A program made the position numbers and the translations under genes. 28,769 bases of DNA from a virus. Location: the IMG/VR virus record IMGVR_UViG_3300045996_001510, positions 1 through 28,769 of that record, one strand, 5' to 3'. The stretch's first letter is position 1; every line of letters starts with the position of its first letter. The notes under the pieces are model-generated. The model saw only the letters and a program-made list of their open reading frames with translations. It was not told the origin of the DNA and did not search any database. Below are positions 2,991 to 25,925 of this stretch, one piece after another.

Positions 2991-3446
2991 TCAGACCTCC
3001 ACTAGGACACATTCCGCGCCGCGCCGAAGGGTGAGCCCGCGCATCTCCCGGCCGCCGGCCTTGTTCCAGCGCATGATTTGGGGCGGCACCTCGTTCCACT
3101 CCCCCGCGTTGACCTTGCGGCGCAGCGTGGAGGCGGACAGGTTGCCGGTGCCCAGGTTGAACGAGAAGTCACACAGGGCAGCCAACCGGTGCGGTGTGTC
3201 TACGTTGGGGCAAAGGCGGATGGTCTTTGGCAGGAAATGCCGGCGCAGATGGAACACCAGAAGATCCTCTGCGCGCTGCCGGGTGATGGGCGGATCGGTG
3301 AGCTGCACCTTGCGGCCGTTCTCGTAGAAGGTGGCGCCGTAGCCGATGGTGGGCACACCGGCCGGGCACAGGTAAGGACGCAGGTACAGGCCCTCAAAGC
3401 GCCGACAGAGCGATGCGGCGAGATGCAGCACCAGCTCGAGATTCAT
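2991..3446 (-). CDS. Phage endolysin, GH24 (T4-type) lysozyme
   Basis: This enzyme cleaves the glycan of peptidoglycan at the end of infection. The 151-residue product has the T4-lysozyme active-site layout: Glu18 in RRFEG, then Cys27 and Thr33 in the segment CPAGVPTIGYGAT, with the same 9 and 6 residue spacing as the classic Glu-Asp-Thr triad. The middle catalytic Asp is replaced by Cys, a variant common in phage lysozymes with a CPAG motif. The N-terminus has no signal peptide or signal-anchor segment, so release should depend on a holin. The start is ATG 3446, whose first base overlaps the upstream stop (TGATG), indicating translational coupling. In-frame extension upstream to 3665 is a shadow of the neighbouring gene. 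Confidence 0.92.
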   Translation of the reverse strand: MNLELVLHLAASLCRRFEGLYLRPYLCPAGVPTIGYGATFYENGRKVQLTDPPITRQRAEDLLVFHLRRHFLPKTIRLCPNVDTPHRLAALCDFSFNLGTGNLSASTLRRKVNAGEWNEVPPQIMRWNKAGGREMRGLTLRRGAECVLVEV

Positions 3447-21453: not shown

Positions 21454-21737
21454 GCCGCTCTCCTCGCTTCAAATTCCGTCATCCGCTCACGCAGCCGATT
21501 CGCTACGGGCGTAGACAGGATTTCATCAACGCTCCGCACGCCGAATTTCCAGAAGCCCAGCGAGCCCAAGTAATTCGCACACACGACACAGCCGCGCCGC
21601 ACCGTCTCGTGATGCACGCCGAAGCGCCGCGCTATGGTTTTGTAGTCAGAGCCGGCCAGTAGGCGATCCAGAAACTGCAGGTAGGTTGGCAGACCAGTGG
21701 GCACGCCTTTGACGCAGCGAATCTTGGTGACGTTCAT
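21450..21737 (-). CDS. Helix-turn-helix-like phage protein, possible regulator
   Basis: A 95-residue basic protein. Residues around 33-50, YKTIARRFGVHHETVRRG, look like a helix-turn-helix in which a sigma-70-like or resolvase-like recognition helix follows a tight turn. Two Cys flank it (CVVC). ATG 21737 has GGAG seven bases upstream. It lies between the replication initiator and the NinB module and is coupled at both ends. A transcription regulator or Q-like antiterminator role would be attractive at this position, but I cannot show either. Confidence 0.6.
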   Translation of the reverse strand: MNVTKIRCVKGVPTGLPTYLQFLDRLLAGSDYKTIARRFGVHHETVRRGCVVCANYLGSLGFWKFGVRSVDEILSTPVANRLRERMTEFEARRAA

Positions 21738-22555
21738 TGCTGTCTCCAGGGGCCGGGACCGGCCTTGTCGAGAACGGCGAGCTTGAAGGGGATAAACCCA
21801 CCGAATCTGTCTTGGTCGATGCCAAGTTCTTTGCCCTTGTGCTCGATGCCGGAGGGTGTTTCCCACCAGTTGCCGGTGATTACGGGCGTGTGCACGACAG
21901 GGTGCGAGAAGCTTGGAGGCTCAGGAATCTTTGCCCAATTGGTGCGAATGGCGTTCTTAAACGCCTCGTCCCAATCGAGGTACTGGTAACCTCTGGCCTT
22001 GGCACTTCCAATGAAGTGCTCCAAGTGCTTCTCAAGGCTGTGGTGGTTGTTCTCCTTAGCCCACTTCCGAACTTGTTCTGAGATTCCAAAGTCCTCAGGA
22101 AGCAAAGTCTTTTTGGGCTTAGCCGCCGGCTTGCACAGCGGCTTATCGCCTACGGATACGTCTTCGACTACGGATACGACTAAGTGAGCATCTGCTGTCT
22201 TTTGCTTATCATCTGCTACGCATTCGATTGGCAGATTCGGGAATCTGCTTTTCTTTGCTCGCACCTGCTGGTTAAAGTCCAACAGCTCCAGGTAACGCTC
22301 CCCGTCCTCTGCCGGGTACACCCTTACAAGAGCCGCTTTTTCAGTCGCCTGAAGCCACTTCTCAATGTCCGAGTCGGAAACCTTACTAAGGTGTCTTGGA
22401 TAACAGGCGGCACGAAGCAGGCCAGGATCGGCAAAGTACCGGCCGTAGTCGTCAACAACGGACATGAGGCGCCTGTAGAAGCACTCCTCTGCCCAGTTGA
22501 GCTTTGCGATGCGAGAGCTGGTCACAATGCCCTCGCGGAGGATGCGGTTAGGCAT
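21734..22555 (-). CDS. Phage replication initiator/replisome organiser
   Basis: A 273-residue protein with a winged-helix-like N-terminal half (SRIAKLNWAEECFYRRLMSV; YLELLDFNQQVRAKKSRFP) and a middle linker. A DnaT/O-type C-terminal segment includes LPEDFGISEQVRKWAKENN and YLDWDEAFKNAIRTNWAKI, which in such proteins binds DNA and recruits helicase loading. No DnaB- or DnaC-type gene is seen nearby, so host helicase is probably used. It starts directly after the methyltransferase stop (TAAATG). An origin may lie in this region as in lambda O, but no iterons were found. Confidence 0.78.
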   Translation of the reverse strand: MPNRILREGIVTSSRIAKLNWAEECFYRRLMSVVDDYGRYFADPGLLRAACYPRHLSKVSDSDIEKWLQATEKAALVRVYPAEDGERYLELLDFNQQVRAKKSRFPNLPIECVADDKQKTADAHLVVSVVEDVSVGDKPLCKPAAKPKKTLLPEDFGISEQVRKWAKENNHHSLEKHLEHFIGSAKARGYQYLDWDEAFKNAIRTNWAKIPEPPSFSHPVVHTPVITGNWWETPSGIEHKGKELGIDQDRFGGFIPFKLAVLDKAGPGPWRQQ

Positions 22556-23209
22556 TTACGCGGCCTCCGCAATACGAGGCCGATTGGCTTCGTGCGCAGC
22601 TAATGAAAAGCCGCGTGGCGTTGTGCTGCGTTTGTTGGCGCGATCAGGACCCGGCGGACACTTATGAATCCTGTCGTCGGGCTGCCCAAGGCCCTCTGCC
22701 ATGAATTTCTCAGGCATGACAAAGCCCCCCCCCGTCCAAAGACAGGTTTTCTTTGTGTAGTTGTCCGAGGGTTCGTAGCCAGTGAATTCGAAGGGATGCA
22801 TGGTGTAGTCAGACTTTCGCCAGTAGGTGCTGATCGTGCTGACGGGGTTTTCAATAACGAAGGAGCATCCGGCTGCGCCGAAGAATTCGGCGGCAGTTGC
22901 GAACATTTCAATGGACCAAGCGAGCATTCGCAGCCCCTTTCCCTCAAACCAGCGCGCGCCACTGACGGCGAGGTGGTCGCAAGGGCAAAAGGCGGCGCCA
23001 AAAGCAAGTGGGCGTGCCGAGTAAGGCCATTCGCGCGGCAACTGGAAGCCGGGGCGAAGGTCTGCTTGCAGCGTCCAGATATTATTTCCGCGATAGTTCA
23101 GCCCTGGCGGGTGCTGGATATCAACCAGCAGGCAAGGGTGCCCTGCATTTGCCCACGGCTCAGCCATGATTCCCGTCAGGTCGAAAAGGAAAACGCAGGG
23201 GCCATGCAT
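22556..23209 (-). CDS. C5-cytosine-methyltransferase-like phage enzyme
   Basis: A 217-residue, compact member of a phage methyltransferase group. FDLTGIMAEPWANAGH (9-24) stands where motif I normally reads FxGxGG, followed by acidic Asp30. FCPCDHLAVSGARWF (74-88) carries the Pro-Cys of motif IV. IENPVS (119-124) is the ENV-like motif VI. YTKKTCLWTGGGFVMPE closes the core. No obvious target-recognition domain follows, so specificity is unknown. ATG 23209 overlaps the upstream stop (TGATG) and lies behind GGAGGG. A G9 run encodes Gly160-162 in frame. Modification of phage DNA to evade restriction is likely, but methylation is not proven. Confidence 0.78.
   Translation of the reverse strand: MHGPCVFLFDLTGIMAEPWANAGHPCLLVDIQHPPGLNYRGNNIWTLQADLRPGFQLPREWPYSARPLAFGAAFCPCDHLAVSGARWFEGKGLRMLAWSIEMFATAAEFFGAAGCSFVIENPVSTISTYWRKSDYTMHPFEFTGYEPSDNYTKKTCLWTGGGFVMPEKFMAEGLGQPDDRIHKCPPGPDRANKRSTTPRGFSLAAHEANRPRIAEAA
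22725..22733. repeat. G9 homopolymer inside the methyltransferase gene
   Basis: Nine C's on the plus strand (G9 in the gene) encode three glycines. In this sequence the frame is open. Loss or gain of one base would truncate the last quarter of the protein. Confidence 0.9.
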
Positions 23210-23523
23210 CACGCCGCCCTCCGCCATTCCATAACGCGGTGAGCGTGCGTCTTTGCTGCCTTGGCTTTCTTCACCTGGCCTGTGGGCTCGATAAGGCCGC
23301 GACGGGACGCAGCACCACAGAGCGCACCCCAAGCCTTGTGGGAGGCTGGCTGAGGCAGTCCGTTATGGGTGGCGTAGTCGCGGAAATCTTCGAAGAGGAA
23401 AGGGACGGCCTGCGTGATACCCAGGAACCGATTCAGATAATCAAGGGCGAGCGTCTGCCAGTCGTTGCCGGCGTGCTCTAGGGCAATCTGCTGCCCATGC
23501 TCTTTTAATTCATGTCCGTTCAC
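23209..23523 (-). CDS. 104-residue phage early protein, unknown
   Basis: The protein is mainly helical with the segments DWQTLALDYLNRFLGITQAV and LPQPASHKAWGALCGAASRR and a basic C-terminus rich in Lys/Ala. The alternating pattern could be a winged-helix DNA-binding fold. The likely start is GTG 23523, five bases after a GGGGG ribosome site. Its stop overlaps the methyltransferase start. It is the first gene after an unexplained gap of about 240 bases. No family is recognised. Confidence 0.6.
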   Translation of the reverse strand: MNGHELKEHGQQIALEHAGNDWQTLALDYLNRFLGITQAVPFLFEDFRDYATHNGLPQPASHKAWGALCGAASRRGLIEPTGQVKKAKAAKTHAHRVMEWRRAA

Positions 23524-23760
23524 GCGAACCCCCGATAACGAAGATCCGCATCCCTGCGTCTTAACCGGCTGACTCCCTGTCGGCCTTGTTGGAATTAGTT
23601 GGTATGCGATGGCCGGACTCTCACCGGCGGCTCGCGCAGTCCCGTCTCTGGGCCTTAACCTAGATCACCACAGGAGCCGTCCTATGCCTTCCGTAGGTTC
23701 GCTAGAGGTGGTTACCCATGTGCTCTAAACACCGCACCACATACCCAAGAGCTGCCGGTA
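23524..23760 (-). other. Unassigned 237-base gap with several potential RNA hairpins
   Basis: No reading frame of useful length covers this stretch, though almost every neighbouring gene overlaps the next. Read on the minus strand it can form many stems: AACCTA/TAGGTT, AGGA/TCCT with loop CGGC, GCCGG/CCGGC, CGCA/TGCG with loop GGGA, and GGCxGAC/GTCxGCC. It adjoins the long hairpin at 23740-23800. I could not fit it to tRNA, tmRNA or a known riboswitch. A structured RNA or regulatory leader is possible. Confidence 0.4.
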
Positions 23761-23800
23761 TTACGTGTCCTTTGGGGACTCCAGCAGCTCTTGCGGTATG
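23740..23800. repeat. Long imperfect hairpin
   Basis: CATACCCAAGAGCTGCCGG (23740-23758) pairs with the opposite arm at 23781-23800, with one bulge and one mismatch, giving about 18 base pairs around a 22-base loop. The loop itself can pair (GTCC with GGAC). No T-run follows on either strand, so it is not an ordinary terminator. Confidence 0.75.
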
Positions 23801-23850
23801 TCCTCGTTAGAGGCGTCAGAGCTGGCCGCCGTCCGTGGCAGCCGTCGCAT
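23761..23850 (-). CDS. Possible 29-residue acidic peptide
   Basis: ATG 23850 overlaps the stop of the 80-residue gene (TGATG) and opens a 29-codon frame containing SDASNEDIPQELLESPKD, ending with TAA at 23761. The coupling is like that of other genes in this operon, but the frame runs into the large hairpin and the peptide matches nothing that I recognise. It may be fortuitous. Confidence 0.3.
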   Translation of the reverse strand: MRRLPRTAASSDASNEDIPQELLESPKDT

Positions 23851-24092
23851 CACTTGCCCTCGGGGCGCTTGTCCAAGCCCTCGTCAGCGAGAATTTCCGC
23901 AACGTCGTCAATGTGTAGGCAGTCCACCATGCAGGCGTAATCGTTCGGCACTTGCACCGACGCAATGTTGCCGTTGCAGTAATCATTGCCGGGCGTGGCG
24001 CTGTGCAGCACACCGAAAGCGACAACCTTTCCGCCTTCCAGTTTCACAATCTTGTCGCCGTTCTTTGCCTCGCGGCCGTTTCTGTAATGCAT
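23850..24092 (-). CDS. 80-residue phage early protein, unknown
   Basis: It begins MHYRNGREAKNGDKIVKLEG, a strand-rich opening shared by small uncharacterised phage proteins, followed by VVAFGVLHSATPGNDYCNGN and an acidic helical end (IDDVAEILADEGLDKRPEGK). AGGA lies about eight bases before ATG 24092. A small beta-barrel domain is plausible. It is part of the leftward early operon. The function is unknown. Confidence 0.7.
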   Translation of the reverse strand: MHYRNGREAKNGDKIVKLEGGKVVAFGVLHSATPGNDYCNGNIASVQVPNDYACMVDCLHIDDVAEILADEGLDKRPEGK

Positions 24093-24111
24093 TTCTCTTT
24101 CCTCGCTGTTG

Positions 24112-24204
24112 TTAACCCATCACCACAGTCATCACCGCCACCGTGCCGGCAATCGCCAGCAGGATGGCTAGTGAAATTTCTAGGACGTTGAATTCGCGGT
24201 CCAT
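24112..24204 (-). CDS. 30-residue single-helix membrane peptide
   Basis: MDREFNVLEI is followed by a hydrophobic helix of about 20 residues ending in MG. ATG 24204 overlaps the stop of the frameshifted upstream gene (TGATG), provided that gene is read in its shifted frame. This supports both genes having once been translated together. The function is unknown. Confidence 0.5.
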   Translation of the reverse strand: MDREFNVLEISLAILLAIAGTVAVMTVVMG

Positions 24205-24432
24205 CACTTCGCAGCCTTCACCTCAGATTTCTCTTTCTTGCCGGGGCGCAGGCTGGGCAGAATCTCGATGCGATGAAGGCCGCAGTAGAATTCCCCCCCC
24301 CTCCCCCTTGCCGAATTTCGCTTTCTTCAGCGTCGAATCCGAGGTGTGAACACGGATTGGCGCGGTTGTCTTTCCGCCCGCGTCCAAAACCTTGGCAATC
24401 GCTTCGATGTCGCTTTTTATGGTTCCAGCCAT
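24204..24432 (-). pseudogene. Small early gene broken by a one-base excess in a G9 tract
   Basis: From ATG 24432 (GGGGGT six bases upstream) the frame reads MAGTIKSDIEAIAKVLDAGG to KFGKGEGG, then meets G9 at 24293-24301. Staying in frame gives a basic, low-quality tail that ends at 24223. Removing one G restores EFYCGLHRIEILPSLRPGKK and a stop that overlaps the next start as TGATG. The length of 229 bases is 76 codons plus one. The downstream piece is clearly the natural continuation. Cause: mutation, slippage switch, programmed frameshift or a homopolymer sequencing error. The function is unknown. Confidence 0.75.
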
Positions 24433-24457
24433 TTCGTTACCCCCGATGGCCCACAAT

Positions 24458-24502
24458 GAGGCCCTCTTTTTCTTTCCTTACGAAGGCTCTTTTGAGGGCC
24501 TC
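24458..24502. repeat. Inverted repeat GAGGCCCTC/GAGGGCCTC
   Basis: A perfect 9-base inverted repeat with 27 bases between the arms spans the end of the 71-residue gene and the short gap before the frameshifted gene. A third copy of GAGGGCCTC lies at 24705-24713, at the stop of the 65-residue gene. The two GAGGGCCTC copies therefore bracket the 71-residue gene. Confidence 0.6.
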
Positions 24503-24693
24503 TTTCGTCCCACGATGCTCAGCACCGGGGCTTTGCGTTCTTGCTGCTTCACGATGTCCGCAAGGCGCATCGCAAGGCCCTCTTCCACTACACGCTCTGT
24601 CGCCTCGCTCAACGTGAGACCACGGCGTGTCGCTAATTCCTGTATCGCGCCAACTACATGCGGCGGGAGTTCATCAATATCGAATGCGGACAC
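24478..24693 (-). CDS. Small early protein, possibly ribbon-helix-helix
   Basis: A 71-residue protein. GTG 24693 has a perfect AGGAGG six bases upstream, better than the in-frame extension to 24756. SAFDIDELPPHVVGAIQELA and LTLSEATERVVEEGLAMRLA look like a strand followed by two helices, as in CopG/Arc-type regulators or antitoxins, with a basic tail. No partner toxin is seen. It may regulate the early operon, but this is inferred from shape only. Confidence 0.55.
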   Translation of the reverse strand: MSAFDIDELPPHVVGAIQELATRRGLTLSEATERVVEEGLAMRLADIVKQQERKAPVLSIVGRKRPSKEPS

Positions 24694-24712
24694 TTGACCC
24701 TCCTGAGGGCCT

Positions 24713-24910
24713 CTAGGCCGCGATATGTTTATCTCCGCGCAGGGTTTCGCACGCACCGTTCTCCACGGCCCACACGATCAGCTCGTGCAAGAAAGTCGCG
24801 TGCTGCTTGCCGGCCAATGTGGCCGAGCGCTGCAGCAGTCGATCCATCTGCGCGTTAAACCGGACCTTGCGGTCCTTACTTCGTTTATCGGCGGGGTTGG
24901 TGTATGCCAC
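24713..24910 (-). CDS. Small basic early protein, possibly Arc/CopG-like
   Basis: A 65-residue protein with a Lys/Arg-rich start (NPADKRSKDRKVRFNAQMDR) then LLQRSATLAGKQHATFLHEL and a final helix. The strand KVRFNAQ followed by two helices is consistent with a ribbon-helix-helix DNA-binding protein. GTG 24910 is chosen for AAGGAG seven bases upstream. It is the first gene after the tR1-like terminator. Confidence 0.55.
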   Translation of the reverse strand: MAYTNPADKRSKDRKVRFNAQMDRLLQRSATLAGKQHATFLHELIVWAVENGACETLRGDKHIAA

Positions 24911-24936
24911 GGTGGTGCTCCTTGGTTGCTCCGAAT

Positions 24937-24962
24937 AAAAAAGGCCGGTCAGAGGACGGGCC
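24937..24962 (-). terminator. Weak terminator after the Cro-type gene (tR1-like)
   Basis: On the minus strand a 7-bp stem with one C-C mismatch (GGCCCGT/ACCGGCC, loop CCTCTG) is followed directly by six T's, eight bases past the Cro-type stop. A weak terminator here would restrict early genes until antitermination, as tR1 does in lambda. Confidence 0.6.
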
Positions 24963-24969
24963 AACAGGG

Positions 24970-25164
24970 TTAGTGCTTGGGTTTGTGCTTCGCGGGCTGC
25001 TTGGACTGGAAAAGCTCAGGGTGTTCGAGCTTCACCTTGGCGGGGATGCCGCGGGCCATCCAGTTCTGGACGCGCTGGACTCCGCCCTGCTTAGGGAAAT
25101 TAAGGAGTTCGGCGACCCGAGTAGGGCCGCCAAGGCGCTGGATGATTTCGCTATCTACATGCAT
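24970..25164 (-). CDS. Cro-type repressor (YdaS-like helix-turn-helix)
   Basis: A 64-residue protein divergent from the repressor. It contains IIQRLGGPTRVAELLNFPKQ, then GGVQRVQNWMARGIPAKVKL, the pattern of small YdaS/Cro regulators. The recognition helix spans about residues 26-38, and a Lys/His-rich tail closes it. It should bind the same operators as the repressor and favour lytic growth. Transcription is from the PR-like promoter that holds an operator in its spacer. ATG 25164 lies about 30 bases from the predicted start of transcription. Confidence 0.85.
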   Translation of the reverse strand: MHVDSEIIQRLGGPTRVAELLNFPKQGGVQRVQNWMARGIPAKVKLEHPELFQSKQPAKHKPKH

Positions 25165-25193
25165 GGCAATGTCCGGCCGTGGTATTTCCGAAC

Positions 25194-25222
25194 ATTAAAC
25201 ACGGTGTTTAAATGACTGTCAA
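25194..25222 (-). promoter_or_regulatory. PR-like early promoter
   Basis: On the minus strand, TTGACA (25222-25217), a 17-base spacer and TTTAAT (25199-25194) form a near-consensus promoter for the Cro-type gene and the early operon. A perfect operator palindrome covers the spacer and all but the last -10 base. Confidence 0.85.
25195..25211. promoter_or_regulatory. Operator palindrome in PR
   Basis: TTAAACACGGTGTTTAA is a perfect 17-base palindrome with one central base. Weaker matches to the same site lie at 25218-25234 (centre 23 bases away) and at 25233-25249 (AACATCATGTT core). Together they look like a three-part operator for the divergent repressor and Cro-type protein. Confidence 0.8.
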
Positions 25223-25235
25223 CGCCACGTGTAAC
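25207..25235 (+). promoter_or_regulatory. Possible repressor-maintenance promoter (PRM-like)
   Basis: TTTAAA (25207-25212), 17 bases and TGTAAC (25230-25235) are a weak but well-spaced promoter for the repressor. The PR operator ends one base short of the end of its -35, as expected if bound repressor also activates its own gene. Confidence 0.4.
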
Positions 25236-25268
25236 AACATCATGTTTAGTTGTGGCAGCCTACTAAAC

Positions 25269-25925
25269 ATGCATGAGCAAATGATCCGCCTTTACAAGGC
25301 AGCCAAGGAATTGAAAGGGGTAGAAGCCCCTTCGGATCTGGCTGATCTACTGAATGAATCCCCACAGACGATCAATAACTGGGAAAAACGCGGCATTTCC
25401 AAGGAGGGTCTTTTGGATGTCCCGGACATTATTGGATGCCGGTTAAAGTGGCTGAGATATGGCGTTGGCCCCATGCATTTAGATGCTTTGCCGCGCCCCG
25501 GCGAGATTGCCGTCCCCCAATACGAAACCGGCGGCATGGGCGGCACCAACGGCCTAATCCTCAAGGATCAGCCCGGCGTTATCCGGGATTGGGTTGTCAG
25601 CCCGGAATGGCTCCGCGCCAACGTCCCGCTCTACTCCAGTCTCGGTAATCTATGTCTGGTAACGGGCTTTGGCGACTCCATGCCAGACCTCTACAACCCA
25701 GGCGACCCGGTCTTGGTCGATAAGGGCGTGCGGGCGTTTGACGGGGATGGGATCTACTTTTTCCGGATTGGCAACGTGGGCTTTATCAAGCGCCTGCAGC
25801 AGATCGGTACCAGCCTCCGGGTGATCTCGCAGAACAAGGAATATGAGCCTTGGACCATGCCAGAAGACGCCGACTTTGAGGTGCTGGCCAAGGTGCTGAA
25901 GGCGTGGAAAAGTCGGAACATCTAA
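25269..25925 (+). CDS. Lysogeny repressor with S24-type C-terminal domain
   Basis: A 218-residue repressor. The N-terminal helix-turn-helix is at about 20-45 (SDLADLLNESPQTINNWEKR). The C-terminal LexA/S24-like domain has Ser137 in GFGDSMPDLYNPGD and Lys174 in VGFIKRL, the expected catalytic pair. No Ala-Gly or Cys-Gly dipeptide occurs anywhere, so the usual self-cleavage site is absent. ATG 25269 fits the start of related repressors but has no ribosome site; ATG 25242, close to the predicted PRM start, could be used leaderless as in lambda cI. It probably represses PR and PL and leads the lysogeny operon. Confidence 0.88.
   Translation: MHEQMIRLYKAAKELKGVEAPSDLADLLNESPQTINNWEKRGISKEGLLDVPDIIGCRLKWLRYGVGPMHLDALPRPGEIAVPQYETGGMGGTNGLILKDQPGVIRDWVVSPEWLRANVPLYSSLGNLCLVTGFGDSMPDLYNPGDPVLVDKGVRAFDGDGIYFFRIGNVGFIKRLQQIGTSLRVISQNKEYEPWTMPEDADFEVLAKVLKAWKSRNI

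Follow-up and report, generated by a model that had tools for sequence, protein, structure and literature searches.

Genomic context of the intergenic block

The window analysed here is a complete stretch of 28,769 nt, a 28.8 kb virus record encoding P22-like portal, coat, scaffold and head-closure proteins as well as a CI-like repressor. The coat protein shares 41.5 % identity with its counterpart in Pseudomonas phage PAE2 and 42.8 % with the one in Xanthomonas phage PBR31; the repressor gave two weak, partial matches in the search for relatives. Leftward from the repressor lie a Cro-like DNA-binding gene (phrog_8008) and five small ORFs, the last encoding an 80 aa protein, followed by the block considered here. 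To the left of the block are, in order, a gene for a 104 aa protein, a DNA methyltransferase gene and a gene for a replication initiation protein (Table 1). The 326 nt gap at 23524–23849, between the 80 aa and 104 aa genes, is the sole large gap in this early operon; the remaining seven gaps among the nine ORFs from 25164 to 21734 measure −124 to +21 nt. A C-rich run, its Cs interrupted by one T, is present at 24293–24307 within a 77 aa ORF (24223–24456).

Table 1. Features in and around the intergenic block (window coordinates)
Feature	Position	Strand	Basis or remark
Upstream 80 aa gene	23850–24092	−	Stop codon borders the block
18-bp hairpin	23741–23799	−	Fold; 18 pairs, −32.4 kcal/mol
Proposed tRNA-like RNA element, 145 nt	23601–23745	−	25 nt identity, 11-bp closing stem, shape descriptor
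Closing (acceptor-like) stem, 5′ strand GGUAUGUGGUG	23735–23745	−	11 contiguous pairs with 23601–23611
D-like arm GUGUU-UAG-AGCAC, following 2 nt linker CG	23720–23732	−	Constrained fold
T-arm-like hairpin GCCGG-UGAGAGU-CCGGC	23612–23628	−	Sequence identity elsewhere
Closing stem, 3′ strand CAUCGCAUACC	23601–23611	−	Abuts the T-arm without a linker
ACCA at the 3′ side	23603–23600	−	Sequence
11-bp hairpin with several G-U pairs, ending at the GTG start of the 104 aa gene	23524–23549	−	Fold
Downstream 104 aa gene	23209–23523	−	GTG start; PHROG search
DNA methyltransferase	22556–23332	−	PHROG match
Replication initiation protein	21734–22555	−	PHROG match

Close relatives of the window phage were not found at the block locus; searches with the 104 aa and replication proteins gave none. 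The 80 aa protein has no Pfam, PHROG or NCBIfam match, and 354 relatives of its gene in viral contigs were confirmed by tblastn. The 80 of these that were kept encode proteins of 79–91 % identity in very different gene contexts. The block is absent beside the 80 aa gene in these 80 fetched relatives, with blastn homology stopping at the gene. In PBR31, genes at 679–984 and 981–1199 and the replication gene at 1204 run on without a comparable gap; thus, judged by layout, the 80 aa gene and the block look like an insertion.

Coding potential, known RNA classes and folding

The longest minus-strand frame opening in the gap has 30 codons (23761–23853; a 29 aa peptide from its ATG), and longer plus-strand frames (e.g. 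116 aa) lie antisense to genes. A short coupled peptide of 29–30 codons beginning at the stop of the 80 aa gene is very improbable. Its start does overlap that stop, with GAGG upstream; however, the frame spans only 93 of about 326 nt and the peptide has no tblastn match at E≤10 in 50,697 phage records.

No Rfam family reached its gathering score anywhere in the window. At E≤5 within 23300–24100, only two sub-threshold eukaryotic RNAs were listed, and ARAGORN predicted no tRNA or tmRNA. Group I, group II and cobalamin-like RNAs were considered on the basis of their motifs; Rfam lends them no support. The minus strand of the block folds at −138.3 kcal/mol (z −3.7), a value reached by none of 100 shuffles, and the plus strand has a z of −3.05 (1 of 100 as low). 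An 18-bp hairpin supplies much of the excess stability. The initial annotation, made from the letters and a list of reading frames, had proposed a structured, apparently non-coding block fitting no RNA class, and had suggested an Rfam search. This description agrees with a frameless 326 nt gap that folds better than shuffles and for which Rfam and ARAGORN are empty. Its extent of about 240 bases was too short, since the structured part reaches 326 nt. The 18 pairs of the hairpin were likewise recovered by folding 23741–23799.

A proposed tRNA-like element within the block

Among plasmids (361 nt query against 7.3 Gb), the block gave a single weak blastn match of 25 nt, 100 % identical, with an E value of 0.03. 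It is located in unannotated intergenic DNA of CP092847, a 46 kb P. aeruginosa plasmid with phage genes. At both sites the 25 nt form a T-arm-like hairpin that runs directly, with no linker between them, into the 3′ strand of a long closing stem. In CP092847 the 25 nt end a perfect 87 nt cloverleaf (z −4.77; 0 of 200 shuffles), made up of an 8-bp closing stem, a 2 nt linker, a D-like arm, a second arm and the T-arm, again with no linker. The element in the window has a middle domain of about 90 nt. This tRNA-like architecture was missing from the initial annotation.

The closing stem of the window played no part in choosing the 25 nt match. A stem as long as its 11 bp occurred in 4 of 3000 shuffles (p about 0.001; 0.0013–0.0017) and in none of 2947 other minus-strand genomic stretches. 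The minimum-energy fold had instead paired AUGCGA at 23850 with UCGCAU as closing stem; this stem was replaced by the 11-bp stem because it was non-significant, with equally good scores in 35 % of shuffles. As in tRNA, a 5-bp T-arm with a 7 nt loop sits on the acceptor-like stem and a 2 nt linker leads to the D-arm, in a fold that is not the most stable one: forcing stem and T-arm puts the element 3.1 kcal/mol above its own minimum. The minimum-energy fold of the full block omits the 11-bp stem (probability 0.00), and the 145 nt element alone has a z of −1.0, with 81 of 500 shuffles as stable. Neither the tRNA covariance model (RF00005) nor ARAGORN recognizes the element. A shape-only descriptor picks it out, along with two other places in the window; shuffled windows matched in 35 of 400 cases when only the 11-bp stem was required and in 8 of 400, with a match as strong as that of the element, when few G-U pairs and a 5-bp D-arm were also required. 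The evidence from shape is moderate.

The 3′ arm of the 18-bp hairpin includes GGUAUGU, which is common to the closing stem. The partner of these seven bases is either the upstream ACAUACC, giving the hairpin, or the downstream GCAUACC, giving the closing stem; the initial annotation did not report this competition. Thus, the two structures are partly exclusive, although 13 bp of the hairpin can coexist with the stem. When forced, the closing-stem alternative is within 2.5 kcal/mol of the minimum for the full block (−138.0 vs −140.5). With two possible partners for GGUAUGU, the modelled RNA may be bistable. Additionally, the 3′ arm of the 11-bp hairpin holds GGGGG directly before the GTG start of the 104 aa gene, which from its sequence is a possible, putative ribosome-binding stretch.

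Such a layout raises the question of control in cis. HK022 put-type antiterminators suppress termination in cis without a protein. The block lies on the same strand as the next gene and directly ahead of it, the 11-bp hairpin abuts the GTG start, and the two near-equal folds share GGUAUGU. The block could act in cis in antitermination or attenuation, or as a leader controlling translation of the 104 aa and methyltransferase genes, possibly by alternating between closing stem and 18-bp hairpin. However, no U-run follows the 18-bp hairpin, and a scan of the minus strand of the window from 22500 to 25400 found no terminator-like site; together with the findings from Pseudomonas phages described below, this makes a cis-acting element unlikely.

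Recurrence in other phages

Scans of viral contigs for the 17 nt hairpin core returned 18 stretches, with 21 for a looser stem and 63 for a looser loop (overlapping sets). Many of the matches are Pseudomonas prophages carrying a conserved flanking frame and many others are probably due to chance. The scans added Pseudomonas loci and, besides these, L092 and L250 (10-bp stems) and L219 and L239 (8-bp stems). Comparable RNAs are present in contigs of unrelated phages. The T-arm hairpin sequence is identical in Pseudomonas phages and L092, and the 2 nt linker is also present in PsA, PsB and L092. The identical 17 nt serve as the T-arm of an ARAGORN-called tRNA-Arg within a tRNA cluster in L099.

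In an unbiased test of 60 distinct sites, the pairing of the bases following the T-arm with any part of the 240 nt upstream was scored against 200 shuffles. Closing stems with p≤0.015 were obtained for the window, for Pseudomonas loci L082, L084, L085, L091, L149 and L201, and for L092, L239 and L250. Most of the 60 sites have no significant closing stem; L101 (p 0.8) and L111 (p 0.7), whose stems carry a mismatch, are among those that fail. Shared interior sequence is weak: as many 9-mers in common with the Pseudomonas inserts as the window element has are found in 9 of 300 random segments, and as many 10-mers in 42 of 300. The basis for the proposed kinship of the window element with the Pseudomonas RNAs is the 25 nt match and the architecture.

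It is unlikely that the block has no functional RNA and is a GC-rich leftover between genes, with a single strong hairpin and a 25 nt match due to chance. The modest z of the element itself is compatible with such a leftover, as is the ease with which sites of the 17 nt motif arise: all 10 matches in a reference-genome scan look like chance, lying in coding DNA with unconvincing stems. The z of the whole block and the agreement between match position, closing stem and linker argue against it.

Ten stitched rows were compared for covariation, namely the window, three Pseudomonas variants, L092, L250, L219, L239, L101 and L111. In these, 92.3 % of cells pair and both sides change in 9 of 13 pairs. 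The covariation score is 0.627, with strands chosen for pairing, against 0.177 when shuffled and at most 0.243 when slid. As the stem strands were picked in this way, only the T-stem change from GCCGG/CCGGC to GCGGG/CCCGC is exempt from that choice, and it was obtained through a pattern search. Same-locus relatives of the block do not exist among those found. In tRNA numbering, the loop retains U54, R57, A58 and U60 of the T-loop and the 53–61 G-C pair; the consensus UGARANU keeps the T-loop-forming bases, and not the two that dock on the tRNA D-loop.

Several other arrangements near phage tRNA genes were observed. In L219 and L239 (cores at 3055–3072 and 454–471), an RNA with an 8-bp closing stem lies directly before tRNA-Thr, in large phages also bearing tmRNA and tRNA arrays. 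A different common sequence, GGGCTGA(A/G)ACA...GCCGGTGAAA(A/G)TCCGGC, adjoins phage tRNA genes in L218, L227, L234, L241 and L242. A match in L238 was set aside, as by eye it resembles part of a group I intron.

A cassette slot in Pseudomonas phages

Fifty-nine Pseudomonas phage records match one variant; in many of them the match is split in two around a different middle. Scanning for the 3′ frame of this slot gave 94 stretches, and among the fetched loci 114 of 122 3′-frame matches have the 5′ frame too (redundant records included). The inserts comprise 53 different sequences in 13 classes by shared 7-mers, the largest of which mixes two types. Class representatives have z values of −1.3 to −4.8, certain interiors alone being no better than shuffles. 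Within Class C (15 variants), two pairs are kept through compensatory changes on both sides. The window shares with these RNAs the core GCCGG-UGARANU-CCGGC, directly adjoining a closing stem that is 8 bp or longer; the flanking frame CAATGGGGATG...CATCCCCACCCTA is absent from the block. No description of the slot or the RNA family turned up in literature searches of a collection with few subscription papers and few bioRxiv preprints.

In the loci read, the slot sits just past a gene's stop and ahead of a terminator-like hairpin. This hairpin resembles an intrinsic terminator and has a T-run, and its place after the cassette would suit a cis-acting element. However, thirteen unrelated inserts occupy one frame and, in the loci read, one terminator-like hairpin follows them; a payload acting in trans accounts for this better than a switch does.

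In PAE2 the slot is located in the left early operon beside a further tRNA-like sequence with a GGTTCGAATCC arm, for which the Rfam tRNA score is marginal (29.9, cut-off 29). Likewise, extra tRNA-like sequences with the canonical GGTTCGAATCC arm lie downstream of the slot in L126 (approximately 1600–1760) and L132 (approximately 1700–1820), none of which is called by ARAGORN. One phage, PACT201, has two cassettes of different class about 270 nt apart (L129, 1533–2029).

Interpretation and proposed mechanism

The initial annotation had offered a phage small RNA, a cis-regulatory leader, an origin-like element and an antitermination site as candidates. Of these, a small RNA is the best fit, since other phages repeat the plan of T-arm and closing stem. 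The pattern, with its compensatory changes and T-loop consensus, is RNA-like, which makes an origin unlikely. The favoured reading, still tentative and short of probable, is that the block encodes a tRNA-shaped noncoding RNA of a little-noticed kind, found as swappable cassettes in Pseudomonas phages.

Such an RNA would be read from the minus strand and have tRNA topology, with a hairpin of 13–18 bp ahead of it: a long closing stem, a 2 nt linker, a D-like arm, an enlarged middle and a T-arm-like hairpin stacked on the closing stem. It would be produced within the cro/replication early transcript and cut out by host RNase P and RNase Z, leaving its ends protected. The stacked T-arm and closing stem correspond to the part of tRNA read by these enzymes, which recognize the tRNA elbow (PMC4810234); phage regulatory RNAs are also processed by RNase P (PMC4919922). 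By analogy, the T-arm on the closing stem is a plausible maturation and stability module. The functional portion would be the middle domain, which at the Pseudomonas slot is exchanged as a whole from phage to phage. The RNA would most likely be used in trans, as a mimic or decoy for a host factor that binds tRNA or cuts RNA, or as a C4-like immunity RNA. Wholesale exchange at one slot is, we infer, typical of host–phage conflict genes, and the role may be anti-defence, immunity or cis control.

Phage accessory genes searched for anti-defence or host-takeover functions are mostly those of proteins. The slot retains the frame of an RNA, and its core is swapped between at least 13 structured types; such a slot would be a reservoir of RNA effectors invisible to gene finders and Rfam. 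A more general and speculative proposal, which we regard as unlikely as it stands, is that temperate phages carry hypervariable tRNA-shaped RNA effectors, in which a constant acceptor/T-arm scaffold hijacks host tRNA processing and an exchangeable middle blocks different bacterial defences or host RNA-binding factors, cassette-swapped like anti-CRISPR genes.

Comparison with known systems

The immunity RNAs of phages, C4 of P1 and P7 and the CI RNA of P4, are natural comparisons. An RNA of this type, processed like a tRNA and bearing antisense loops that pair with phage leader RNA, is rather improbable here. The variability of the cassettes would suit immunity specificity. C4 is likewise a phage noncoding RNA, which RNase P processes out of a longer transcript, with variable targeting loops on a constant scaffold; cleavage is 5′ of the P1 stem at GGW (PMC5320573), and the window stem also begins with GGU. 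However, C4 is about 77 nt with three stem-loops (PMC5320573), and the window element has 145 nt. At E≤5 neither the window block nor L082 gave a C4 match, nor did 13 Pseudomonas-slot loci at E≤1. Additionally, no antisense target of the window element was found in the rest of the window, where the longest complement is 12 nt against a mean of 12.5 nt for 60 random segments, C4 pairing being possibly shorter than this comparison detects.

tRNA and tmRNA share with the window element the closing stem, the 2 nt linker, the D-like arm, the T-arm abutting the closing stem and ACCA at the 3′ side. Unlike them, the element has an enlarged middle domain, is not called by ARAGORN or Rfam and has G-A at loop positions 55–56, where tRNA has U-C. 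RNA anti-CRISPRs (Racrs) are also small phage RNAs mimicking a host RNA (PMC10651486); they mimic CRISPR repeats, whereas the window element has a tRNA-like plan. The Pseudomonas slot has an identical T-arm core, the same topology and the same position past a stop codon within a run of small genes. It differs in its conserved frame, its nearby terminator-like hairpin, its closing stem (GGGGAUG/CAUCCCC) and its location, in the left early operon of PAE2 as opposed to the cro/replication operon of the window.
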